Assembly (NCBI RefSeq): GCF_031583065.1 | Contig: NZ_CP134053.1 | Span: 186,001 to 250,000 of the forward strand | Origin: Streptomyces sp. CGMCC 4.7035 | GTDB taxonomy: Bacteria > Actinomycetota > Actinomycetes > Streptomycetales > Streptomycetaceae | Direction of reading: 5' to 3' | Length of the DNA stretch: 64,000 bases | In this document: positions 45,911 through 63,231 of the stretch, piece after piece | How positions within the stretch are numbered: position 1 is the first letter of the stretch | How the letters are laid out: each line of letters starts with the position of its first letter | Notes under the pieces: model-generated | Told to the model about the DNA's origin: nothing | Databases searched by the model: none | Seen by the model: only the letters and a program-made list of their open reading frames with translations | Program-made: the position numbers and the translations under genes

Positions 45911-48588
<2,678 letters not shown>

Positions 48589-50320: not shown

Positions 50321-52039
50321 TCAGCCGGTCGGCGCGCTGACCGCCGCATCACCGGCGGGCAGGGACTCGGTGCCGTCGGCGGCCACGGCGGTCACCCAGT
50401 AGTAGGAGGTGGTGCCGCGCCGGGCGGCGGTGTCGAAGTACTCCAAGGCACTGGCACCGAGGTCGGCGATCTTCTCGTACGTGCTGGTGGCCGGGTTCCA
50501 GCGGTAGACGCGGTAACCGCGCGCGGCCTCCGGGGCGTCCACGCCCAGCCCGCTCCAGCTCAGCCGGTTGCCCTCGTCGCCCTCCGCGCCGGTCGCGTCG
50601 AGCGTCAGCGGCGAGCCTTCCGGCGTCGCCACGCTCGGTGTCATGTCGAGCTCGGTCGCGGTCACGATCTGGGCCTCGCCGGTCCATTTGAAGGAAGAGT
50701 TCCCGGCGTCGTCGATGGCGTCGACGATGAAGCAGGACTCCTCGCCGTCCGGGACGACGGTGTACGCGTACGAGGTGGTGTCGGCCGACACGTAATAGCC
50801 CGGGGAGAGGGAGCACACCTGCTGCTCCTCGTCCCCCCACAGCTCACCCCTTCGGACCACGTAGCTCGCCAGGTCGGCGGTCGGGTTGGCGTCCCAGCGC
50901 ACCTCGAAGCCGTACTCGGTCGGGGTGACGGTCACCCCGGTGACGGCGGACGGCGGCGTGAGGTCCCGGCGCTTCCCGCTGACGGCGACGGACCGCGCGG
51001 ACTCGTTGCCCGCGGCGTCGAGAGCGGTCACCCGGTAGTAGTAGGTGGTGTCCTCGGCGGCCGAGGCGTCCACGTACGAGACCTGGGCGGTAGTGCCGAC
51101 GCCGGTGTAGGTCCCGTCCGCAGTGGCCGCCCGGTACACCCGGTACGACACCGCTCCCTCGACCGCGCTCCACCCGACCCGCAGACCCTCCGGTTCGGAG
51201 CTGGTGCTCAGTCCGGTCGGCACGGTCGGCGCGGTGCGGTCGACGGTGGTGACCGCCTGGTCGGCGGTGCCCGTCGACTCGTTGCCCGCCTTGTCGTAGG
51301 CACGGATCTCGTAGTAATACGCCGCGCCGGTCACCGGCAGGGTCGTGTCCGTGTACGACGTGGCGGTGGTGGTCGTCAGCCTGGTCCAGTCGGCGCTGCC
51401 CTTCGGGCGCCGGTAGACCCGGTAGCCCGCGAGGTCCATCTCCTTGTTCCGCGCCCAGACGAGCTTGGCCTTGCCCGTCGCCGTGTCGTACGACACCGAG
51501 GTCCCGGTCGGGGTGAGCGGCTTGACCTTGTCGACGGTCGCAGAAGTCCTGGGCAGATAGGCGAACTTGACGTTGGCCGAGCCCGTCCAGTTGACGTAGT
51601 CCACGCGCAGCGTGTGCTTGCCGGAGGGGATGGTGACGTTGACGGTCTTCGTCACCGTGGTGGAGACGTTCTTCCACAGGTCCACCTTGCGGACGCCGTC
51701 CAGGTACACACGGACGCCGTCCTGCGCCGCGGCGGCGAAGGAGAAGGGACCGCCGGAGCCGAAGTCACGCGTGACGGTCCAGCGGACGCCGAAGTTGTTC
51801 GTCGGCAGGCCCGAAGCGGGGGCGCCCGTACCCCAGTTCTCGCCGATGGCCGAGTCGCAGTCGGTCTTCTTTGGCGTACCAGCGAAGGTGGTGTTCGCGA
51901 AGAACTGCCGCTTGAAGACGGGCGAGGTGCACGTTGTGGCGGCGGAAGCCGGGGCGGTGGTCGCGGTGAGGAGACCGCCGGCGGTGGCGAGCACGACGGC
52001 GGTTGCGGCCGCGGCGGTCGTGCGTCTGGCTGGGTTCAT
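50321..52039 (-). CDS. Secreted PA14-like / fibronectin type III protein (paralogue of 53366-55078)
   Basis: A 572-residue exported protein. Signal peptide 1-35 (cleavage after ASA), then a PA14-like domain (about 38-165) with CDSAIGENWGTGAPASGLP, NNFGVRWTVTRDFGSGGPFS and DGVRVYLDGVRKVDLWKNVS. Four FnIII-like repeats follow (about 170-265, 266-360, 361-460 and 465-572; e.g. MDLAGYRVYRRPKGSADWTR, YYYRVTALDAAGNES). PA14 domains usually bind carbohydrate, so a surface or matrix adhesin or the non-catalytic part of a lost enzyme is likely. ATG at 52039 has GAGG five bases upstream. Confidence 0.82.
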   Translation of the reverse strand: MNPARRTTAAAATAVVLATAGGLLTATTAPASAATTCTSPVFKRQFFANTTFAGTPKKTDCDSAIGENWGTGAPASGLPTNNFGVRWTVTRDFGSGGPFSFAAAAQDGVRVYLDGVRKVDLWKNVSTTVTKTVNVTIPSGKHTLRVDYVNWTGSANVKFAYLPRTSATVDKVKPLTPTGTSVSYDTATGKAKLVWARNKEMDLAGYRVYRRPKGSADWTRLTTTTATSYTDTTLPVTGAAYYYEIRAYDKAGNESTGTADQAVTTVDRTAPTVPTGLSTSSEPEGLRVGWSAVEGAVSYRVYRAATADGTYTGVGTTAQVSYVDASAAEDTTYYYRVTALDAAGNESARSVAVSGKRRDLTPPSAVTGVTVTPTEYGFEVRWDANPTADLASYVVRRGELWGDEEQQVCSLSPGYYVSADTTSYAYTVVPDGEESCFIVDAIDDAGNSSFKWTGEAQIVTATELDMTPSVATPEGSPLTLDATGAEGDEGNRLSWSGLGVDAPEAARGYRVYRWNPATSTYEKIADLGASALEYFDTAARRGTTSYYWVTAVAADGTESLPAGDAAVSAPTG

Positions 52040-52146
52040 GGATCCTCGGTCGTGATTGTCGTTGGCCGGGGAAAGGCTGGCGACGATCATGACTCGTGGA
52101 GCGGCCCATGGGTTGTACGGGTCCGCCGGTGACGTGTGGCGGATCG

Positions 52147-52326
52147 TCAGGCGCCCTTGACATGCCGCAGGAGAGCGGCGAGGCATTCGGGGGCGGTGGT
52201 CAGGATGACGTCCGGGGTGTCGCTCTCGCGGAGGCGGATCGTTCCGTCGGGGGCGGTGGCCGTGTAGAGGCAGTTGCCCTCGGGGCCGCCGCTGTACGAC
52301 GACTTCTGCCAGTGCAGTTCGGGCAT
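52147..52326 (-). CDS. DUF397 domain protein
   Basis: A 59-residue protein, MPELHWQKSSYSGGPEGNCL onward, with the DUF397 signatures WxKSSYSG, NCLYTA and IRLRESDTP. In streptomycetes such genes (bldB/whiJ-like families) pair with XRE-type DUF5753 regulators or anti-sigma-like ATPases. Here no intact partner is adjacent: upstream only a short scrap (…SMKDSLALIQHVLYTL ending at 52337) remains, so this gene may be orphaned. Confidence 0.85.
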   Translation of the reverse strand: MPELHWQKSSYSGGPEGNCLYTATAPDGTIRLRESDTPDVILTTAPECLAALLRHVKGA

Positions 52327-53365: not shown

Positions 53366-55078
53366 TCATTCGGCGCTCTCCGGCTCGGTGACGGTGACGT
53401 ACGAGTAGTCCTCGCCGCTGGTGAAACGGGAGTTGCCGTACGTGTCCACGGCTACCACGGCCCAGCGGACCGTCGCGCCCTGCGGCGAGTCGATCTCGTC
53501 GGCGAAGAACAGCCTCGGCTCGTCCTCATAGGTCTGCCACACCTGACCCCAGCGGCCGTACCGCCAGTCGCCGTCAACGAGTTCGCCCCGGTAGACGTCG
53601 TAATGGTCGACGTCCTCCTCGGGGTTGCGGTCCCACGCCAGTTCGATGTCCGTGCCGTTCATGGCGCCGCGCAGCCCGGTGACGGCTCCGGGAGCGAGCC
53701 CGGTGCCCGGCGCGGTGCAAGTGACCGGTGCCGATGCAACGGACTCCTGGGCCTGGGTGTCCACGGCGGTCACCGTGTACGTGTACGAGGTGCTCTGCCG
53801 GACGCCGGTGTCGCTGTAGGACGTCTGCGTGGCGCGGACCTCGTCGATGAACCGGCCGTTCCGGTAGATCCGGAAGTGCCCGAGATCCCGTGCGACGGGC
53901 GTGGTGGGCGCCTTCCACGTCAGTGTGATGCCGCTGCCGGCAGCTGCCGTGGCCGTCAGGCCGGTGGGCGCGGAGGGCGCGTAGTCGCCCCGCTCGATCC
54001 GGTCGTACGCCGACTTCGCGGACTTGTTGCCGACGGAGTCGACGGCGGTGACCCAGTAGGTGTAGGCACGGCGCTCCTCGACCGCCGTGTCCAGCCAGAA
54101 GGTGGTCGTCACCCTGGCGACCTGGACGACGGGGTTGTCGCCACCGTCGTCATCCCGCCGCCGGTGGACGAGATACTCCGCAGCTCCGGGGACCGCGTTC
54201 CAGGTCACCGTGACGCCGGCCTGGCCGTCGGTCGCCGTGACTCCGGAGGGAACCGGTGGCGGCGTCCTGTCGGCCGTCGTGACCGAACGATCGGTGCTGC
54301 CGATCGATTCGTTGCCGGCCTTGTCGTGGGCCCGGACCTCGTAGTGGTACGTGTCTCCGGTCGCGGGCGGCGTGTCGGTGTACGAGGCCGCTGTCGTAGT
54401 GGTCAGCCTCTTCCAGGCGTCGGTGCTCTGGAGACGGCGATAGACGCGGTACCCCGCGAGGTCCATCTCCTTGTTCTTCGACCAGGTGAGCTTGGCCTTG
54501 CCGGTGGTCTTGTCGTACGCGACGGAGATGCCCGTCGGGGCAAGCGGCTTGACCTTGTCGACGGTGGCGGAGGTGCGGGGCGCGTAGCCGAAGGCGACGT
54601 TCGCCGTGCCGGTCCAGTTGACGTAGTCGATGCGCAGGGTGTGCTTGCCGGACGGGATGGTGACGTTGACGGTCTTCTTCACCGTCGACGACACGTTCTT
54701 CCAGAGGTCCACCTTGCGGGTGCCGTCGAGGTAGACGCGGATGCCGTCCTGGGCCGCGGCCGAGAACGCGAAGGGGCCGCCGGAGCCGAAGTCCCGCGTC
54801 ACGCTCCAGCGGACGCCGAAGTTGTTCGACGGCAGGCCCGAAGCGGGGGCGCCCGTGCCCCAGTTCTCGGCAATCTTCGAGTCACAGTCCGTCTTTTTCG
54901 GTGTGCCCGAGAATGTGGTGTTCGCGAAGAACTGCCGCTTATGGACGGGCGATGCGCAGCTCACCGCCGCCTCGGCGGCGGGCGCGGCGGCGAGCAGGGT
55001 GCCGGCGGTGGTGACCGCCAGGGTCGCCGCGAGCGTGGGTCCGAAGTGGTGCCGACGGACGGGTGTGACCGTTGTCAT
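53366..55078 (-). CDS. Secreted PA14-like / fibronectin type III protein (paralogue of 50321-52039)
   Basis: A 570-residue exported protein. Signal peptide 1-37 (AATLAVTTAGTLLAAAPAAEA), PA14-like domain about 40-170 nearly identical to its neighbour (CDSKIAENWGTGAPASGLPS, WSVTRDFGSGGPFAFSAAAQ, RKVDLWKNVSSTVKKTVNVT), then four FnIII-like repeats that diverge more, with an insert RRRDDDGGDNPVV. A C-terminal repeat (YDVYRGELVDGDWRYGRWGQ) differs from the paralogue. ATG at 55078 follows AGGGA. The pair probably arose by tandem duplication. Confidence 0.82.
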   Translation of the reverse strand: MTTVTPVRRHHFGPTLAATLAVTTAGTLLAAAPAAEAAVSCASPVHKRQFFANTTFSGTPKKTDCDSKIAENWGTGAPASGLPSNNFGVRWSVTRDFGSGGPFAFSAAAQDGIRVYLDGTRKVDLWKNVSSTVKKTVNVTIPSGKHTLRIDYVNWTGTANVAFGYAPRTSATVDKVKPLAPTGISVAYDKTTGKAKLTWSKNKEMDLAGYRVYRRLQSTDAWKRLTTTTAASYTDTPPATGDTYHYEVRAHDKAGNESIGSTDRSVTTADRTPPPVPSGVTATDGQAGVTVTWNAVPGAAEYLVHRRRDDDGGDNPVVQVARVTTTFWLDTAVEERRAYTYWVTAVDSVGNKSAKSAYDRIERGDYAPSAPTGLTATAAAGSGITLTWKAPTTPVARDLGHFRIYRNGRFIDEVRATQTSYSDTGVRQSTSYTYTVTAVDTQAQESVASAPVTCTAPGTGLAPGAVTGLRGAMNGTDIELAWDRNPEEDVDHYDVYRGELVDGDWRYGRWGQVWQTYEDEPRLFFADEIDSPQGATVRWAVVAVDTYGNSRFTSGEDYSYVTVTEPESAE

Positions 55079-55452
55079 GCTCTTCCCTCGTCTGGATCGC
55101 TCCACGACAGCCGTGGGCGCCGAAGATCACGACTTACGGGAACCGCTGTGGGTTGTACGGGCGTGCGCATCGCGACCCCCGAAACGCTCGGCGTGCTCGA
55201 CCGAGTACCGGTGCGTGTCTGCGAGTTGAGGGCCCGTCGGTCACCGGATCCATTCAATCGGCAGGCAAAATCTTCATCGCGCGAAGGTTTGGAAACGGCC
55301 ACCGCATGACACCCTCTTGGTTTTCACTGGACTTCCACAGGGATGCTGTTGTCATCTCGTTAACCGGTACAACTTGACGCTGCATGCCGTCGCCGCGTTG
55401 GCTTTCAGCCACCTGGGTCGCAATGCTGCTCCCCGCCCGGAAGGCACCTGAT
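55079..55452. other. Divergent promoter region
   Basis: About 370 bases between the PA14/FnIII gene and the sugar-binding lipoprotein. AT-richer around 55300-55375 (CGTTAACCGGTACAACTTGACG at its end, written as GTTAAC then TTGACG), suggestive of a promoter. No gene supported. Confidence 0.4.
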
Positions 55453-56586
55453 GTGAACGCCCGTACTAACCGTAGGACCACCGTGCGTCGTACTGCCATA
55501 GCCCTGGCCGCCTCCGTGTCGGCCTTCTCCCTCGCCGCGTGCGGCGTCATCGGCGGAAGTGGGAGCAGCAGCTCCGCGGCCCCGAAGAAGGGCAACGACA
55601 TCACGGTGGGCGTGCTGATGCCCCAGAAGGACATCGCCCGCTACGAGAAGTTCGACTACCCCATCATCAGGGACCAGGTGCGCGCCCTCACCAACAACGA
55701 GGGCAAGGTCGTCTACGCCAACGCCGAGGCGAAGGCGTCCAAGCAGACCGAGCAGTTCGAACAGATGATCGCCGACAAGGTGGACGTGGTGATCGTGGAC
55801 GCGGTGGACGCCAAGGCCATCGCGCCGGCCGTGCAGAAGGCCAAGGACGCGGGCATCCCGGTCATCGCCTACGACCGGCTCGCACAGGGCCCGATCGACG
55901 CGTACATCTCCTTCGACAACGAACTGGTCGGCCAGGTGCAGGGTCGCGCCCTCGTCGAGGCATTCGGCGACAATGCCGCGAGCAGCAAGATCCTCATGAT
56001 GAACGGCTCGCCCAGCGACCCGAACGCGGCGCAGTTCAAGGAGGGCGCGCTCAGCGAGCTCCAGGGCAAGGTGAACATCGTCAAGTCGTACGACGTCAAG
56101 GACTGGTCGCCGGAGATCGCCAAGCAGAACACCGCGGCGGCGATCCGGGCCATCGGCCTGAGCAACATCGCCGGGGTCTACTCGGCGAACGACAGCATGG
56201 CCGAAACCATCATCGACGCGCTGAAGGAGGCGGGCGTCAGCAAGGTCCCGCCGGTGACCGGACAGGACGCGGAGCTGGCGGCGGTACAGCGGATCCTCGC
56301 GGGCGAGCAGTACATGAGCGTGTACAAGCCGTACCCGCAGGAGGCGAACAACGCCGCCGAGATGGCGGTGGCCAAGGTCCAGGGCCGCTCGATCGAGTTC
56401 GACGCGCTGACCCGTGACAAGGTCGACAGCCCGACGCAGAAGGACATCCCGTCGATGCTGGTGCCGGTGGTCGCGCTCACGAAGGACAACATCAAGGACA
56501 CGGTGATCCAGGACGGCATCTACACCGTCAAGGAGATCTGCACCGACAAGTACAAGGCGGACTGCTCGGCGAAGGGTCTGAAGTAA
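55453..56586 (+). CDS. Sugar ABC transporter substrate-binding lipoprotein (xylose/ChvE-like)
   Basis: A 377-residue exported lipoprotein. Lipobox SLAAC with Cys30 after RRTAIALAASVSAF. Periplasmic-binding-protein type 1 fold with ITVGVLMPQKDIARYEKFDY, DVVIVDAVDAKAIAPAVQKA, IPVIAYDRLAQGPIDAYISF and IAGVYSANDSMAETIIDALK, a pattern of xylose or multiple-sugar binding proteins. GTG at 55453 follows GGAAGG. Unusually, no ATPase or permease gene follows; the next gene is a LuxR regulator, so it must work with a transporter encoded elsewhere. Confidence 0.9.
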   Translation: MNARTNRRTTVRRTAIALAASVSAFSLAACGVIGGSGSSSSAAPKKGNDITVGVLMPQKDIARYEKFDYPIIRDQVRALTNNEGKVVYANAEAKASKQTEQFEQMIADKVDVVIVDAVDAKAIAPAVQKAKDAGIPVIAYDRLAQGPIDAYISFDNELVGQVQGRALVEAFGDNAASSKILMMNGSPSDPNAAQFKEGALSELQGKVNIVKSYDVKDWSPEIAKQNTAAAIRAIGLSNIAGVYSANDSMAETIIDALKEAGVSKVPPVTGQDAELAAVQRILAGEQYMSVYKPYPQEANNAAEMAVAKVQGRSIEFDALTRDKVDSPTQKDIPSMLVPVVALTKDNIKDTVIQDGIYTVKEICTDKYKADCSAKGLK

Positions 56587-57010
56587 CGCCTTTGAGGGGT
56601 ACACCGACGAGCTGAGCGCGGCCGTACGGACCGCGGGAGCCCGGCGGGTGACCCCGGGGCCCACTGAGGTCCCGCTCCAGGGCGTCCGGGCTCCTCGGCA
56701 CCGGGTCCGGCGGCCAGGGCTGCTCCTCGGCAGGGCACGCGGTCGCCGGTCGCCCGACGCGGTGCGCGTGAGCTCCCGTCAGCTTGGTGCGGCGGGAGAA
56801 GCGGAGGTGGGGAGAATCCTGGTCGTTCACGGGCATTTCCGGGCGTGAGGGCGGCTGAGCCGTGTTGCGGAGGCGGGCGGCTCCGCGCATAGTTGCGCTG
56901 CGAAGGCGTGCGGGGCGACACGGACGGCGTGTCCGGGCACGTGGCGTACGTCGCCGGTGGGCTGCGTCGCGCAGCGCACTGGAGCCGGGAGTTGCAGCCA
57001 GGGGTGGAAG
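56587..57010. other. Intergenic region, about 420 bases
   Basis: No convincing gene. An inverted repeat CGGAC-GGCGT-GTCCG near 56921-56935 lies about 80 bases before the LuxR-type gene and could be an operator. Confidence 0.35.
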
Positions 57011-58048
57011 ATGGCCGGGCACGGGACGGACACGCATCCGCACGGCGCTGACCGGCTCTGCGAGGCCGGGAACCGCGTGTACTCCCGGGCCGTGCGCCGC
57101 GGCCGGGTGCCCCGTGCCGATGCCGGGCCGGTGCCTTGCCTGCTGGAGCTGGCGCTGCTGCACCCGGACCCCGACGACATGGACTGGCTGGTGCCGACCG
57201 CACCGCAGGAGGTCATGACCCGGCTGCTGCGCGGTGTGCACGAGGAGGTCAGTGCGAGCCAGGCGCGGGTCGGGGCGGCGGTGGCCGCGGTCGAGTGGTA
57301 CGCCGGGCTCGGCGGTCGTGAGCAGGGGCCCGCGGAGGGCGTGGCGATTCGTGTCCTGGACGGGCTCACGCGGATCCGCGCGGCGATGGACGAGGCGACG
57401 GAGCGGTGCACGACCGAGGTGCTGACGGTGCAGCCGGGCGGCATCCGTCGCGAGGACGAACTCGCCGAGGGCCTGCCCCGGGCGCTGGAGATGCGCCGCC
57501 GGGGCGTACGCATGCGCGACCTGTACACGCATGTCGCCCGGCACGGCCAGGGCCTGTACACCTACATGGAGCTGATGGGCGACGCGGCTCAGGCGCGCAC
57601 CCTCGACGAGGTGCCCGAGCGCCTGATCCTCTTCGACCGCACCGTCGCCTTCATCCCGGCGAACACGGATCGCACGATCGCGCTGGAACTGCGCCATCCG
57701 GCCCTGATCGAGTACCTGGTCACCGTCTTCGATCGCCTGTGGCGCCTGGCGATCCCGCTGACCTCGCCGCTCCCGGAGACGGGCATCGACGGCATCACCC
57801 ACCGGGAACGCTCGATCGCGGCGCTGCTCGCGGAGGGCCACCAGGACGCGGTGGTCGCCGAACGCCTGGGCATCAGCGTCCGCACCTGCCGGGCGCACAT
57901 CGCCCGGCTCTCGGAGACCCTGGGCGCGGCCAGCCGTACGCAGTTGGGCGTCCGTATCGCCCAGGCGGGCCTGGACGGCCCCCTGCGCTCGTCCGAACTG
58001 CTCCCGGTCACGGCTCCGGGCGCTCCGGAATCCCCGACCGGCCTATGA
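57011..58048 (+). CDS. LuxR-type transcriptional regulator (paralogue of 58104-59090)
   Basis: A 345-residue regulator. The N-terminal part (LCEAGNRVYSRAVRRGRVPR, PCLLELALLHPDPDDMDWLV) and middle sensor-like region (TTEVLTVQPGG, RLILFDRTVAFIPANTDRTI) are shared with the convergent gene; the C-terminal LuxR helix-turn-helix is at about 258-325 (GITHRERSIAALLAEGHQDA, AERLGISVRTCRAHIARLSE). No phospho-acceptor or autoinducer domain is recognised. ATG at 57011 has GTGGAAG upstream. Convergent with its paralogue, with 55 bases between. Confidence 0.88.
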   Translation: MAGHGTDTHPHGADRLCEAGNRVYSRAVRRGRVPRADAGPVPCLLELALLHPDPDDMDWLVPTAPQEVMTRLLRGVHEEVSASQARVGAAVAAVEWYAGLGGREQGPAEGVAIRVLDGLTRIRAAMDEATERCTTEVLTVQPGGIRREDELAEGLPRALEMRRRGVRMRDLYTHVARHGQGLYTYMELMGDAAQARTLDEVPERLILFDRTVAFIPANTDRTIALELRHPALIEYLVTVFDRLWRLAIPLTSPLPETGIDGITHRERSIAALLAEGHQDAVVAERLGISVRTCRAHIARLSETLGAASRTQLGVRIAQAGLDGPLRSSELLPVTAPGAPESPTGL

Positions 58049-58103
58049 GACGTTCACCCGGGGTGGGCGGGCGCCGGCGCCGGGGCCGGTCGACGGCGAC
58101 GGT

Positions 58104-59090
58104 TCAGTTGCCTTGCTCCAGGATTCCCGACTGCGCTATGAGGTAGCCCAACTGGGCCCGGCTGCCGCTGCCCAGGGCCGCCGCGATCTTCGCTATGTGG
58201 GCGCGGCACGTGCGTACGTTCATGCCGAGGCGGCGGGCGATCGCCTCGTCGACGTGGCCCTCTATGAGCAGCTTGGCGATGGAGCGCTGCACCCCCGTGA
58301 TGCCGTTGGTGTCGACATCGTTGGGCACCTCCTCGGTCAGCGGGACCGCACGCTGCCACAACTGCTCGAAGACCATGGCGAGATACCGCACCAGCGCGGG
58401 GTGGCGCACCTCCAGGGCCACGCGCCGGTCCTCGCTGGCCGGGATGAAGGCCACCGTCCGGTCGAAGATGATGAGCCGCTCTATCAGTTCCTCGAGCGTA
58501 CGGACCTGGATCTTGCCGTCGGAGATGCGCTCCACGTACGCGAGGGTGCTCTGGCTGTGCCGGGCCGTGTGCTGGTACAGCGTCCGGATGCTGACCCCGC
58601 GGTCGGCGAGCGGCCGGTCGCGCTCCAGGGCCTCCATGAGGGTGTCGGCGGGACGGCCGCCCCCCGGCTGCACCGTCAGCATCTCCGTATGGCACTCCGC
58701 GGTGGCCGAGTTGAGTGCCCCGTTGATCCGGTCGAAGCCCTCCAGGACGGTGATCGAGTGGAGGCTCGCCTGAGGGCTCTGCGTGCTGATCGTGATGAAC
58801 GGGTCGAAGGACTCCGTCAGTTCGATCGTCTGGCGCCGGCGATCCTGAATCTCGCGCTCCAGCGGGTGCAGTCGCTGGGCGAGCGCGACGGACGGGGGAA
58901 CCGGGCGCAGCCAGTTGGCGTCGTCCGGGTCCGGGTGCAGCAGCGCGAACTCCAGCAGACATGGAGCGGGTTCCACCTCGGAGCGCGTGATCCGTCCTGA
59001 GCGCAGTGCGTTGGCGTAAAGCCGTGCTCCGTCGTCGCACAACTCAGTGACAGCGTGGGGATGTGTCGGTTTTGAGTTGTATGTGGTCAT
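58104..59090 (-). CDS. LuxR-type transcriptional regulator (paralogue of 57011-58048)
   Basis: A 328-residue regulator with the same layout: LCDDGARLYANALRSGRITR, PCLLEFALLHPDPDDANWLR, TEMLTVQPGG, RLIIFDRTVAFIPASEDRRV, then a C-terminal helix-turn-helix (GITGVQRSIAKLLIEGHVDE, ARRLGMNVRTCRAHIAKIAA). ATG at 59090. It is divergent from the DSGW-repeat peptide gene with 112 bases between, so it is the likely regulator of that operon. The ligand is unknown; a FDRTVAFIP motif in both suggests a shared sensing core. Confidence 0.88.
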   Translation of the reverse strand: MTTYNSKPTHPHAVTELCDDGARLYANALRSGRITRSEVEPAPCLLEFALLHPDPDDANWLRPVPPSVALAQRLHPLEREIQDRRRQTIELTESFDPFITISTQSPQASLHSITVLEGFDRINGALNSATAECHTEMLTVQPGGGRPADTLMEALERDRPLADRGVSIRTLYQHTARHSQSTLAYVERISDGKIQVRTLEELIERLIIFDRTVAFIPASEDRRVALEVRHPALVRYLAMVFEQLWQRAVPLTEEVPNDVDTNGITGVQRSIAKLLIEGHVDEAIARRLGMNVRTCRAHIAKIAAALGSGSRAQLGYLIAQSGILEQGN

Positions 59091-59107
59091 TTCTCCACCC
59101 CCCAGGG

Positions 59108-59123
59108 TCCTGAACGTGCAGGA
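59108..59123. promoter_or_regulatory. Candidate operator between LuxR and peptide genes
   Basis: Inverted repeat TCCTG-AACGTG-CAGGA in the divergent region, followed by a TTGACG box at about 59149-59154 oriented toward the peptide gene. Confidence 0.4.
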
Positions 59124-59202
59124 ACATGATGCATCGCCCCAGTGGCATTGACGTGCCTGAATGAGCCATCGTCTTGTGCAGCGGGGGAGAGGATTCCATC
59201 AA

Positions 59203-59490
59203 GTGAGGACGAAGCCGACTATGCGACCGAGATTGCTTGGTTCAGTTCTTGCAGCCGTCTTCTCCGCCGCCGTGGTTCTCGGTGCCCAGAGCGGCTCGGT
59301 TCTTGACGCCGGGCAGACCCGATCGGTGGTCCAGTCGGACAGCGGCTGGAACGCCGTGGCCACCAAGGCGGACAGCGGCTGGAACTTCGTGAACGCGGCC
59401 GGCCCGGCGGACAGCGGCTGGGACTCCGTGGGCGTGGCTGCCCCGGCGGACAGCGGCTGGAACAGCCTTCCCACGGACGCGGACGCATGA
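59203..59490 (+). CDS. Small secreted peptide with four DSGW repeats
   Basis: A 95-residue product with start GTG at 59203 (GAGAGGA nine bases upstream; ATG at 59221 also possible). A signal peptide (RPRLLGSVLAAVFSAAVVLG) is followed by four near-identical units, SDSGWNAVATKA, DSGWNFVNAAGPA, DSGWDSVGVAAPA and DSGWNSLPTDADA. DSGW recurs at residues 46, 57, 70 and 83, i.e. spacing 11, 13, 13; the DNA of each unit is also repeated (GCGGACAGCGGCTGG three times exactly). No cysteine. The stop overlaps the next gene's ATG. Looks like a multi-core precursor or an oligomerising surface peptide; family unknown to me. Confidence 0.8.
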   Translation: MRTKPTMRPRLLGSVLAAVFSAAVVLGAQSGSVLDAGQTRSVVQSDSGWNAVATKADSGWNFVNAAGPADSGWDSVGVAAPADSGWNSLPTDADA

Positions 59491-59822
59491 CGATTCCCCC
59501 CGACGACCGCTCGTTCCGGCGCGAGATGGCCACCGCCTACCGCTCCGGCTGGCACTTCATCGACCTGGCCACCGCCATCCCCCACAGCGGCGACTCGTTG
59601 ATGGTGACCGTGTTCGGGGAGCCCGTCGTGGTCACCCGTGACGAGGACGAGGACGTGCGGGCGTACCGGCTTCTGCGGCGGCCTCGGGGGGCGCCGCAGC
59701 CCGTGCGGTGCGCCATACGGTACGGAATGATCTTTGTGAACCTGGACCAGCGCGACCACCGGCTGGCCGAACCGGACAGTCCGGAAGTGAGGACCATCTC
59801 AGCCACCCCCCGCAGTGCCTGA
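59487..59822 (+). CDS. Rieske-fold-like small protein lacking cluster ligands
   Basis: A 111-residue protein translationally coupled to the DSGW peptide (ATGA overlap). GWHFIDLATAIPHSGDSLMV, TVFGEPVVVTRDEDEDVRAY and IRYGMIFVNLDQRDHRL resemble the N-terminal Rieske domain of ring-hydroxylating dioxygenases, including the G.p.vv.Rd..g.vrA pattern. Where Rieske proteins have Cys-x-His-Arg-Gly it reads LLRRPRG, and there is no second Cys-x-x-His, so no [2Fe-2S] cluster can be held. Likely a binding or scaffold protein for the neighbouring peptide; function inferred only from context. Confidence 0.7.
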   Translation: MTIPPDDRSFRREMATAYRSGWHFIDLATAIPHSGDSLMVTVFGEPVVVTRDEDEDVRAYRLLRRPRGAPQPVRCAIRYGMIFVNLDQRDHRLAEPDSPEVRTISATPRSA

Positions 59823-59976
59823 CGCGATTCCCCCGTCGTAACAGATCGCTCAGGTGCTTCCCCCCGCAGCGGCGTCACCGTGACCTGAACACGGTGACGC
59901 CGCTGCAGTTTTACGGGAAATATCGGGACATCGCCCGGAACGGAGCACGGCTGGAATCAGTCGTATCCCCGAAACC

Positions 59977-60110
59977 CGGCGATCGTTCGGCCGTCGGCCT
60001 CAGCCGCGCCCTTCGATCCCTGGCGATCGTTCGGTCTCCCGCCTCAGCCGCGCCCTTCGCACCCCGGTGATCGTTCGGCCTCCCGCCTCAGCCGCGCCCC
60101 AGTGCCCGGG
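59977..60110. repeat. Three tandem copies of a 44-bp repeat
   Basis: Units carrying GATCGTTCGG begin at 59981, 60025 and 60069, exactly 44 bases apart, each followed by CCTCAGCCGCGCCC. The third unit includes the last codons and stop of the PPOX-family gene (60088), so the array is a triplication of that gene's 3' end. Confidence 0.9.
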
Positions 60111-60501
60111 TGAGGGCGATCTCGATCACCACGCGGGACGGGTTCGGCCTCGGCATCCGCCCGTAGCGCTCGGCGTAGCGCCGCACCGCCTCCGCGACCC
60201 GCTCCGGATCGGCGCAGACGGAAGCGCGGCCCTCCAGCGTCGCCCACCGCCGCCCGTCCACCTGGCAGACCGCGACCGGCGCCCCGTCCGGCCCGGCGGC
60301 CGCCACATGTCCCGCCTTCGCGCTCGCCTTGTCGGTGATCACCCGAGCGAGCCGCGCCTCGGGGTCGTATGTCACTCCGACGGGAACGACGTGCGGGCTG
60401 CCGTCCGGACGGAGGGTCGTCAGCGTGCACAGGTGCCGCTCCTGCCAGAACGTGAGGTATGCGGCGTCGGGTGCGCCCGGGTCTACGGAGTACGTGGCCA
60501 T
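60088..60501 (-). CDS. PPOX-class F420/FMN-binding protein
   Basis: A 137-residue split-barrel flavin/deazaflavin protein. FWQERHLCTLTTLRPDGSPH, VVPVGVTYDPEARLARVITD and RRWATLEGRASVCADPERVA match the F420-dependent PPOX group of actinobacteria. The substrate is unknown. The final residues (ALGRG) and stop lie in the 44-bp repeat. It diverges from clpB, with 132 bases between that contain the clpB HAIR. Confidence 0.85.
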   Translation of the reverse strand: MATYSVDPGAPDAAYLTFWQERHLCTLTTLRPDGSPHVVPVGVTYDPEARLARVITDKASAKAGHVAAAGPDGAPVAVCQVDGRRWATLEGRASVCADPERVAEAVRRYAERYGRMPRPNPSRVVIEIALTRALGRG

Positions 60502-60539
60502 GGTTCCGGAACTTAGCCGTTCACCCTCCCGCCCGGCGC

Positions 60540-60560
60540 CTTGAGTGGAATAGACTCAAC
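60540..60560. promoter_or_regulatory. HAIR element upstream of clpB (HspR operator)
   Basis: CTTGAGT-N7-ACTCAAC, a 13/14 match to the HspR consensus, 73 bases upstream of the clpB GTG. It puts clpB in the HspR regulon with the dnaK operon 10 kb away. Confidence 0.92.
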
Positions 60561-60633
60561 TTTGTGTACGTTGCCGTAGTCAGACTGGAAGCAGAGAGCT
60601 GAGCGCGGCCGACGCAAGGAGGAGAACGCGAAC

Positions 60634-63231
60634 GTGGACGCCGAGCTGACCAACAGGAGCCGGGACGCGATCAACGCGGCCAGCAACCGGGCCGTGTCGG
60701 AGGGGCACCCGGACCTCACCCCCGGCCACCTGCTCCTCGCGCTGCTCGAGGGGCAGGACAACGAGAACATCATCGACCTCCTGGCCGCAGTGGACGCCGA
60801 CCAGGCCTCCGTGCGGTCCGGCGCCGAGCGCGTGCTCGCCGGTCTGCCCAGCGTGACCGGGTCGACCGTCGCGCCGCCCCAGCCCAACCGCGAGCTGCTC
60901 GCCGTGATCGCCGACGCGACCAAGCGCGCGAAGGACCTCGGCGACGACTACCTCTCCACGGAGCACCTGCTCATCGGCATCGCCGCGAAGGGCGGCGCCG
61001 CGGGCGACGTACTCTCGCGGCAGGGGGCGGACGACAAGAAGCTGCTGGACGCGTTTCAGAAGAGCAGGGGAGGACGCCGGGTGACGACCCCGGATCCGGA
61101 GGGCCAGTACAAGGCGCTCGAGAAGTTCGGCACCGACTTCACCGCCGCCGCGCGCGACGGCAAGCTCGACCCGGTCATCGGCCGGGACCACGAGATCCGC
61201 CGCGTCGTCCAGGTGCTGTCCCGCCGCACGAAGAACAACCCGGTCCTCATCGGTGAGCCCGGCGTCGGCAAGACCGCCGTCGTGGAGGGGCTCGCCCAGC
61301 GGATCGTGAAGGGCGACGTTCCCGAGTCCCTGAAGAACAAGCGGCTGGTCGCGCTCGACCTGGGCGCCATGGTCGCCGGCGCGAAGTACCGCGGTGAGTT
61401 CGAGGAGCGGCTCAAGACCGTGCTCGCGGAGATCAAGGACTCCGAGGGCCAGATCATCACCTTCATCGACGAGCTGCACACCGTCGTGGGCGCGGGTGCC
61501 GGCGGCGACTCCGCCATGGACGCGGGCAACATGCTCAAGCCGATGCTGGCCCGTGGTGAGCTGCGCATGGTCGGCGCGACGACCCTCGACGAGTACCGCG
61601 AGCGGATCGAGAAGGACCCGGCGCTGGAGCGGCGCTTCCAGCAGGTGATGGTCGCCGAGCCGACCGTCGAGGACACCATCGCCATCCTGCGCGGCCTCAA
61701 GGGCCGGTACGAGGCCCACCACAAGGTGCAGATCGCGGACAGCGCGCTGGTCGCCGCGGCCACCCTCTCCGACCGGTACATCACCTCACGCTTCCTGCCC
61801 GACAAGGCCATCGACCTGGTCGACGAGTCGGCCTCCCGGCTGCGCATGGAGATCGACTCCTCCCCGGTCGAGATCGACGAGCTCCAGCGCGCCGTGGACC
61901 GGCTGCGGATGGAGGAGCTCGCGCTCGACAAGGAGACCGACGCGGCCTCGCGCGAGCGTCTGGAGAAGCTGCGTCGCGACCTCGCCGACAAGGAGGAGGA
62001 GCTGCGCGGCCTCACCGCCCGCTGGGAGAAGGAGAAGCAGTCCCTCAACCGTGTCGGTGAGCTGAAGGAAAGGCTCGACGATCTGCGCGGGCAGGCCGAG
62101 CGCGCCCAGCGCGACGGCGACTTCGACGCCGCGTCCAAGCTGCTGTACGGCGAGATCCCGGGCGTGGAGAAGGAGCTGGAGGCCGCCTCGGAGGCCGAGG
62201 AGGAGGCCGCCAAGGGCACGATGGTCAAGGACGAGGTCGGCTCCGACGACATCGCCGATGTCGTCGCCTCCTGGACCGGCATCCCCGCCGGACGCCTCCT
62301 GGAGGGCGAGACGCAGAAGCTGCTGCGCATGGAGGACGAGATCGGCAAGCGGCTCATCGGGCAGTCCGAGGCCGTACGCGCCGTCTCGGACGCCGTACGC
62401 CGCAGCCGCGCGGGCATCGCGGACCCCGACCGTCCGACGGGTTCCTTCCTCTTCCTGGGCCCCACCGGTGTCGGCAAGACCGAGCTGGCCAAGGCGCTCG
62501 CCGACTTCCTCTTCGACGACGAGCGGGCGATGGTCCGCATCGACATGTCGGAGTACAGCGAGAAGTACAACGTCGCCCGCCTGGTCGGCGCCCCGCCCGG
62601 ATACGTCGGCTACGAGGAGGGCGGCCAGCTCACCGAGGCCGTACGACGGCGCCCGTACAGCGTCATCCTGCTCGACGAGGTGGAGAAGGCGCACCCGGAG
62701 GTCTTCGACATCCTCCTCCAGGTCCTGGACGACGGCCGCCTGACGGACGGCCAGGGACGCACGGTCGACTTCCGCAACACCATCCTGATCCTCACCTCGA
62801 ACCTGGGCAGCCAGTTCCTGGTCGACCCGGTCACGAGCGCCGAGGAGAAGAAGGAACAGGTGCTGGAGGTCGTACGGACGTCCTTCAAGCCGGAGTTCCT
62901 CAACCGGCTCGACGACCTGGTCGTCTTCTCCGCGCTGGACAAGGACGAACTCCAGCGGATCGCCAGGCTCCAGATCGACCGGCTGGCCAAGCGCCTGGCC
63001 GAGCGGCGCCTCACCCTGGAGATCACGCCCGAGGCCCTGGCCTGGCTCGCGGACGAGGGCATGGATCCGGCGTACGGCGCGCGCCCGCTGCGCCGCCTTG
63101 TGCAGACCACCATCGGCGACCGCCTCGCCAAGGAGATCCTGGCCGGGGAGGTCAAGGACGGCGACACGGTCCGGGTGGACGCCTTCGGCGACGGGCTGCT
63201 GGTCGGGCCGGCGACGGGCAAGACGCTGTAG
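60634..63231 (+). CDS. clpB: ATP-dependent disaggregase ClpB
   Basis: An 865-residue Hsp100 chaperone that works with DnaK to resolubilise aggregates. N-domain 1-145, first AAA+ domain with Walker A GEPGVGKT (207-214) and [20 protein letters not shown], a coiled-coil M-domain (about 400-520, [20 protein letters not shown]), second AAA+ with Walker [10 protein letters not shown] (from 609) and [15 protein letters not shown]. The pore loops ([24 protein letters not shown]) are intact. GTG at 60634 follows AAGGAGGAG. There is no second internal start that stands out. Confidence 0.97.

Follow-up and report, generated by a model that had tools for sequence, protein, structure and literature searches.

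A candidate peptide-signalling cassette of D-x-x-W words and a divergent LuxR-type regulator beside clpB in Streptomyces

Across the genus Streptomyces, a small leader-bearing precursor carrying one to ten copies of a D-x-x-W motif (the word) is encoded opposite a LuxR-type regulator and immediately before a small Rieske-like gene. The reading that best accounts for this arrangement, to which we give a probability of roughly 0.6, is that the word is a secreted, species-specific tetra- or pentapeptide signal that would be read by the regulator, a protein predicted to join a TrmB/PLD-fold sensor to a LuxR helix-turn-helix (HTH). For the broader proposition, a genus-wide Streptomyces peptide language of D/E-x-x-W-x words, with TrmB/PLD-fold LuxR receptors that restrain antibiotics and with sister pairs in other genera, we regard the odds as even. 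In the window (the whole 64,000-nucleotide stretch of Streptomyces sp. CGMCC 4.7035 DNA analysed here), the peptide and Rieske-like genes sit between the LuxR-type gene and clpB, as follows.

58104..59090, minus strand: divergent one-component regulator, with a TrmB/PLD-fold sensor and a C-terminal LuxR HTH, both predicted
59108..59132, no strand: proposed operator TCCTGAACGTGCAGGAACATGATGC, with a TCCTG-N6-CAGGA inverted repeat at 59108-59123
59203..59490, plus strand: peptide precursor gene, GTG start, 95 aa, with a possible ATG start at 59221 (read from the translation)
59233..59286, plus strand: hydrophobic segment of the leader, residues 11-28 (read from the translation; related peptides have a comparable segment)
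59338..59352, plus strand: core unit 1, DSGWN (this and the next three units read from the sequence, with repeats in relatives)
59371..59385, plus strand: core unit 2, DSGWN
59410..59424, plus strand: core unit 3, DSGWD
59449..59463, plus strand: core unit 4, DSGWN
59487..59822, plus strand: Rieske-oxygenase-like N-terminal domain of 111 aa without the cluster-binding part (from profile and fold prediction)
60088-60501, strand opposite to the Rieske-like gene: PPOX-type gene
60634-63231: clpB, beyond the PPOX-type gene

Much of the initial annotation of this locus was upheld. The four DSGW repeats that it described at 11-13 residue spacing lie at 59338-59463, with spacings of 11, 13 and 13 residues; the ATGA overlap with the Rieske-like gene is found at 59487-59490, where the stop of the peptide gene overlaps the next start; and the LuxR gene is indeed divergent, with the inverted repeat in between. 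The signal peptide was borne out in part: the leader is basic and hydrophobic, but an A-x-A or otherwise clear signal-peptidase site was not seen in the window copy. The leaders of related peptides share an RTKPTM..SVLAAVFS.. pattern, and the repeats are shared too. The source genome holds a single copy each of the peptide and Rieske-like genes, the remaining matches being weak. An Rfam scan of 58000-61000 returned no match, and PADLOC only a weak CARF match on the HTH end of the LuxR protein (E 5e-4). Elsewhere in the window, two neighbouring genes (50321-52186 and 53366-55105, both minus strand) encode PA14-domain proteins that resemble each other and probably carry export signals, one protein having a Pfam fibronectin III match, and a periplasmic sugar-binding-like gene (Peripla_BP_4) is found at 55384-56586 on the plus strand.

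A [DEN]xxW word follows the leader in the ORF preceding the Rieske-like gene in all 132 parsed Streptomyces loci, which together hold 443 word copies and 36 majority tetramers, at 1-10 copies per protein. The versions found include DSGW, DTGW, DSTW, DSSW, DTVW, DVGW and DLGW as well as DITW, DIGW, EISW, DPGW, EPSW, EPTW and DPVW; among named organisms, S. scabiei has DSSWG, S. griseoviridis and S. canus DSKWD, S. glaucescens mostly DVGWS, a S. violaceoruber chromosome DTIWS and the S. venezuelae type EPSWE. The conserved unit is [D/E/N]-x-x-W-x and the flanks are not conserved: identity between copies is 0.98-1.00 at positions -3 to 0 (D-x-x-W), 0.69 at +1 and 0.24-0.50 elsewhere. The middle pair is identical in 702 of 725 comparisons within proteins (97%), the mean between proteins being 0.059, and 106 of the 115 multi-copy proteins use one tetramer throughout. 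As the word is so much better kept than its flanks, the copies are not recent duplications, and something holds the word uniform. Nearly every tryptophan after the leader (443 of 450) falls inside a word, and the spacers between words are rich in Ala, Pro, Gly, Ser and Thr. The protein ends with a word plus one residue in 24 of the 132 loci (e.g., DTVWD, DSIWS), and in four distant cassettes a single word, DPAWD or DPTWG, stands at the very C-terminus. The initial annotation had offered, as one of two options, a precursor with multiple short active units tied to its neighbours and had suggested a search for DSGW-repeat relatives and their surroundings; the unit, as D-x-x-W(-x) within a genus-wide cassette, and the neighbours (LuxR, Rieske-like gene and clpB) proved to be conserved, whereas the literal DSGW is one version only and is not.

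Because the choice of ORF in locus parsing favours [DENQ]xxW, a separate scan with a control sequence was performed. Of 100 cassette loci, 88 were picked up by a search for a leader followed by [DEN]xxW, either repeated or at the C-terminus. The same scan gave two matches in 758 kb of control, which consisted of the rest of the window and the flanks of the same 100 loci and is thus largely homologous and not independent; both are genuine cassette peptides from loci with a misplaced start. Word-bearing leader peptides beside the Rieske-like gene are therefore not a chance match. In total, 162 loci were examined and 139 parsed. The 23 unparsed loci comprise 13 non-cassettes (L002, L003, L005, L006 and L052-L060), six distant or full-length matches (L094-L099) and four cassettes (L080, L085, L088 and L115), and the set of 132 was reached by removing duplicates (L001, L104), second copies (L100-L102) and misparsed loci (L113, L127). 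Re-inspection found repeated words in L085, L088, L113, L115 and L127; by the pattern used there, none was found in the L080 cassette.

Among 80 named genomes, the word was found in 74, five had no leader by the pattern used, and one, S. olivochromogenes, has FTEW (FTEWP in L382); the other 74 readable named loci have an acidic residue or Asn three before the Trp. Two genomes recorded as S. violaceoruber differ, with NTVWP in L351 (NRRL S-981) and DTIWS in L183: either the names or the words differ within one so-called species, and record names are no sure species guide.

The cassette is kept across the genus. Its Rieske-like marker was matched in 327 of 392 Streptomyces genomes, including four distant cassettes (43-46% identity) and two full-length oxygenase-like frames (400 and 414 residues), and a divergent LuxR-type gene occupies this place in all 101 longer Streptomyces loci. 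When five window proteins were sought in these 101 loci, only LuxR, the Rieske-like protein and clpB were constant, PPOX being absent from 9. The stop of the peptide gene and the start of the Rieske-like gene overlap at +4 in 73 of the 132 parsed loci. No peptidase or importer gene was found within the cassette. Among 5.8 billion proteins searched, the peptide had 25 relatives (E up to 1) and the Rieske-like protein 169 (E up to 0.1).

The regulator has no visible membrane segment; its sensor is predicted to adopt a TrmB/PLD fold and its C-terminus to be a GerE/LuxR HTH. We compared its divergence with changes of the word, 54 in number, along a clpB tree covering 91 loci (91 of the 101 LuxR sequences were parsed, and the misplaced peptides L256 and L257 were assigned the words found for the same genomes, L092 and L093). 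On branches where the word changes, the sensor had a ratio of observed to expected change of 1.36 (p 0.0005), the HTH of 1.30 (p 0.001) and the Rieske-like protein of 1.25 (p 0.03); PPOX and ClpB stood at 1.05 and 1.01. Per change in control proteins, the ratios of sensor and HTH were 1.66 and 1.62. As the excess of the HTH and the Rieske-like protein is close to that of the sensor, this test does not set the sensor apart, and the cassette evolves as a whole; judging by these sequences, part of the co-divergence of peptide and sensor is the cassette moving as a block. Linkage might even be the whole explanation, with the cassette exchanged as a block, words and sensors changing together without contact and the words drifting under some other force. 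An excess in all three cassette components and in neither PPOX nor ClpB fits such an account, as does a per-control ratio for the HTH that equals the sensor's.

What argues against linkage alone is a comparison of same-word and different-word pairs at matched divergence. Among 150 loci binned on sensor synonymous divergence (the pairs not being independent), mean sensor pN for same versus different words was 0.078 versus 0.176 at pS 0.3-0.4, 0.132 versus 0.230 at 0.4-0.5, 0.151 versus 0.248 at 0.5-0.6 and 0.166 versus 0.259 at 0.6-0.7; bins below 0.3, with 6 different-word pairs in all, were left out. Over the first three of these bins, the corresponding values were 0.039/0.040, 0.058/0.060 and 0.056/0.063 for the Rieske-like protein and 0.029/0.038, 0.042/0.060 and 0.057/0.070 for the HTH. 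At equal sensor pS, sensor change is thus 1.6-2.3 fold higher with different words, whereas Rieske-like change is nearly equal (pS 0.3-0.6). Since synonymous sites saturate in this pS range, a second match was made on Rieske-like pN, using disjoint pairs: median sensor pN for same and different words was 0.072/0.174, 0.124/0.211 and 0.148/0.270 in successive bins, the top one being matched loosely (Rieske-like pN 0.061 versus 0.070). The largest p value was 4.8e-6, and a partial Mantel r of 0.554 compares with a largest value of 0.073 in 500 permutations. Overall, at matched divergence, the sensor differs 1.6-2.4 fold more at different-word loci and the Rieske-like protein does not; HTH pN is also raised, by 1.2-1.4 fold.

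Within the regulator, the excess is highest in residues 135-200 and 229-261 and lower in residues 17-64, which lie nearest the peptide gene, and in the HTH, a regional pattern that is partly expected as variable columns can differ more. That the excess is greater in the predicted PLD-fold core than at the sensor end nearest the peptide gene speaks against mere linkage, and drift would not hold up to ten word copies identical while their flanks diverge. A column-level search for sensor residues tracking the word found no position that survives correction for the number of columns. Taken together, these sequence comparisons indicate that the sensor co-varies with the peptide word within the cassette, and we consider it unlikely that linkage is all there is to it.

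At E up to 1e-20, relatives of the LuxR protein occur in 17 of 24 family genomes outside Streptomyces; at E up to 1e-40, they occur in 8 of 20 Streptomyces that lack the Rieske-like gene. We scanned 43 paralogue loci (164 kb), of which 30 are from other genera, 10 from Streptomyces without the Rieske-like gene and 3 from the source genome. Against a 758-kb control free of spurious matches, five of the 30 other-genus loci have a leader peptide whose word is repeated or C-terminal: L280 (ASA-DSIWG...ADSIW, with an ASA|D-like site), L283 (DSAWD twice), L300 (NLNWD five times), L301 (DFVWA) and L305 (SDIVW). The peptide gene is divergent from the LuxR gene in L280 and L305 and convergent in L283, L300 and L301. 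By the word scan, no such peptide was found at the other 25 other-genus loci or at any of the 13 Streptomyces loci. None of the five other-genus genomes with similar peptides contains a match to the Rieske-like protein, which suggests that peptide and LuxR are the minimal pair and that the Rieske-like gene is a Streptomyces addition.

Further LuxR copies were noted beside some cassettes. A second LuxR gene in the window (56957-58048, plus strand) is 49% identical to the first, with no word peptide of its own seen; L183 (1285-2268, minus strand) has two paralogous LuxR genes beside its cassette (82% and 48% matches), again with no word peptide of their own seen. In one other-genus genome, a stretch of about 8 kb holds six of the 11 LuxR matches (L388, G404:C1:171500-182000), and this cluster adjoins a peptide ending in DFVWA. 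The scanned flanks contained no word peptides besides the cassette peptides.

The similarity of the small coupled protein to Rieske domains is weak but real, in agreement with the initial annotation, which had called it a Rieske-fold protein without a cluster. It matches PF00355 at E 0.012, below the Pfam cut-off, and by profile a Rieske dioxygenase chain at E 2.5e-5. The sequence shared with the N-terminal part of ring-hydroxylating oxygenases lies around FRREMATAY..GDSLMVT..EPVVVTRD..VRAY and then, weakly, in a GMIFVNLD strand; about 50 residues including the second ligand pair are missing (query 68 to 80 against target 109 to 172), so that the cluster-binding part is shrunk to about ten residues. 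Compared with the N-terminal Rieske domain of these oxygenases, the protein thus shares sequence and a predicted beta fold, with moderate support for a Rieske fold from structure prediction, but has neither the CxH/CxxH ligands nor a catalytic domain: the cluster ligands C-L-H of 9jp5 align with R-R-P, and the window protein has one Cys. Its C-terminal ATPRSA is almost invariant and the stretch before it variable. In 101 genomes of the family, matches outside Streptomyces occurred in 6, always within open frames 389-672 residues long and with 31-36% identity; as these are long frames only, the small protein looks Streptomyces-specific. Three Streptomyces genomes have second copies (L100, L101 and L102; 68-71% identical) away from the clpB cassette, where no recognisable word peptide was seen. 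The initial annotation had coupled the peptide to this protein, as a possible recognition or modifying protein; the partner whose evolution tracks the peptide within the cassette is the LuxR sensor and not this protein, which is nearly invariant. Our guess is that it may be an intracellular accessory contacting something invariant, such as the precursor leader or the regulator body.

It could also be asked whether the locus encodes a multi-core RiPP, in which the words would be cut out and modified at Trp or Asp, the Rieske-like protein would be the recognition or modifying factor, and the product would be a signal or an antibiotic. A leader followed by several cores and a closely coupled protein, with the +4 overlap in 73 of 132 loci, are what such a system would look like, and the sequence alone is compatible with modification. 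However, no RiPP modifying enzyme constantly adjoins the precursor among the five window proteins sought in 101 loci, in line with the initial remark that no known RiPP enzyme is nearby: the constant neighbours are LuxR, the Rieske-like gene and clpB, even PPOX being absent in 9. In addition, the Rieske-like protein is without cluster ligands and is unmatched in the five other-genus peptide genomes, and the leader resembles an export signal. We find a RiPP rather unlikely. A polymorphic peptide antagonistic to close kin, with the LuxR protein regulating it and the sensor serving self-recognition, is improbable. The peptide is hypervariable and probably secreted, and polymorphic antagonistic systems also co-diversify; yet the cassette showed no membrane partner that varies, the protein coupled to the peptide hardly changes, and short hydrophilic Asp/Glu-Trp peptides would hardly seem membrane-active.

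The Trp repeats and their Ala/Pro/Gly/Ser/Thr-rich spacers could suggest a secreted structural or surface-assembling repeat protein, akin to the self-assembling surface peptide offered by the initial annotation, for which no support was found; with copy numbers from 1 to 10, words that can be single and C-terminal, and a word that varies by species and tracks a regulator with no visible membrane segment, this is very improbable. A leader peptide read by the ribosome (attenuation or stalling), controlling the Rieske-like gene and yielding no secreted product, would explain the stop-start overlap or tight coupling with that gene but is hardly credible given the hydrophobic leader, the lack of a set distance between words and stop, the concerted change of residues 2 and 3 and the lack of an Rfam match in 58000-61000.

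The intergenic operator has a constant core, and the HTH of the regulator is constant. AACATGATG is present in 231 of 233 loci (some genomes counted twice), and the other two have it after start correction. Exact copies of the operator number one per genome in 4 of 5 genomes searched, and no second site with fewer than three mismatches was found in the 5; as a control, the reversed pattern also gave one match in each of two genomes. Upstream of clpB, a perfect inverted repeat at 60541-60559, TTGAGTGGAATAGACTCAA, agrees with the HspR operator consensus as quoted in a passage of PMC2687793, and sites of the HspR type with one mismatch occur at 45998-46016 and 46050-46068.

A link to antibiotic production comes from gene order. 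The S. coelicolor clpB gene is SCO3661 according to the clpB passage of PMC2687793, and Table 1 of PMC3282765 lists SCO3665 (327 aa) and SCO3666 (394 aa) as LuxR genes. L183, which we take to be S. violaceoruber, has two LuxR ORFs (394 and 327 aa), then the divergent LuxR and, after it, the genes for the DTIWS peptide, the Rieske-like protein and ClpB. With this order and these lengths matching SCO3666 and SCO3665, the divergent LuxR should be SCO3664, of which the cassette regulator would be the orthologue. The alternative that SCO3664 is the peptide or the Rieske-like gene was discarded because the two LuxR ORFs that lie past the first one in L183 measure exactly 394 and 327 aa. In its account of insertion targets, PMC6585502 includes SCO3664 ('regulator') among those raising actinorhodin more than 50-fold; its text also lists a SCO3664 complementation plasmid and states that 12 of 16 regulator mutants were complemented.

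For a secreted signal read by the regulator, we infer the steps of export, processing, import and binding, and the sign of the response, as follows. The hydrophobic leader would take the precursor out of the cell, where cleavage would yield short D-x-x-W-x copies (here DSGWN/D), which would re-enter through a general oligopeptide importer. The imported peptide may then bind the TrmB/PLD-fold sensor of the divergent regulator, its middle residues being the species-specific word matched by the sensor. The regulator would act on the intergenic operator, and hence on its own circuit, and would restrain antibiotic production directly or indirectly.

The closest known kind of system is peptide signalling with a cytosolic receptor. 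In the RRNPP systems (Rap-Phr, PlcR-PapR, Rgg-SHP, ComR-XIP), a small precursor is secreted, the short active peptide is often C-terminal, and a neighbouring intracellular transcriptional receptor, a TPR protein, shows pherotype-like co-variation. The cassette resembles these in its small precursor, short peptide that can be C-terminal, neighbouring regulator and co-variation (the last seen here in sequence), but differs in that the proposed receptor is predicted to have a TrmB/PLD fold and a LuxR HTH instead of TPRs, that most precursors hold several word copies, and that the host is actinobacterial. To our knowledge, it departs from other peptide-signalling systems with a cytosolic receptor in the fold of the proposed receptor, in its precursor with several copies and in its host group. 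Yeast alpha-factor type precursors have several identical cores between spacers after a secretion leader; multiple identical cores, spacers and a leader are shared, whereas the present system is bacterial, with a tetra- or pentapeptide and a proposed cytosolic receptor. Relative to archaeal TrmB and TrmBL2 (5box, 2f5t, 3qph), the regulator has an extra C-terminal LuxR HTH, and its proposed ligand is a peptide, not a sugar. Streptomyces are known for signalling by gamma-butyrolactones and furans, and the gamma-butyrolactone receptor is of a different kind from the TrmB/PLD-LuxR regulator. Gamma-butyrolactone signalling combines a diffusible signal with a cytosolic one-component receptor and controls antibiotics and development in Streptomyces, as set out in a section of PMC4748050. 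The signal proposed here would be a ribosomal peptide instead of a small lactone. Judged by title and abstract, a peptide signal for this regulator was not found in searches of the open-access literature, outside which most subscription papers lie. Nothing was found there for DSGW with Streptomyces, and the text matches inspected for six words were unrelated letter strings.

If the signalling reading is correct, a peptide signal-receptor pair would lie next to clpB in roughly five out of every six Streptomyces species (the Rieske-like marker is matched in 327 of 392 genomes, two of the matches being other proteins). Five-residue synthetic peptides would then provide a handle on a regulator whose loss reportedly raises actinorhodin more than 50-fold, the 36 words and their matching sensors would form a natural set for working out specificity, and a ligand class would be suggested for a large family of LuxR regulators.
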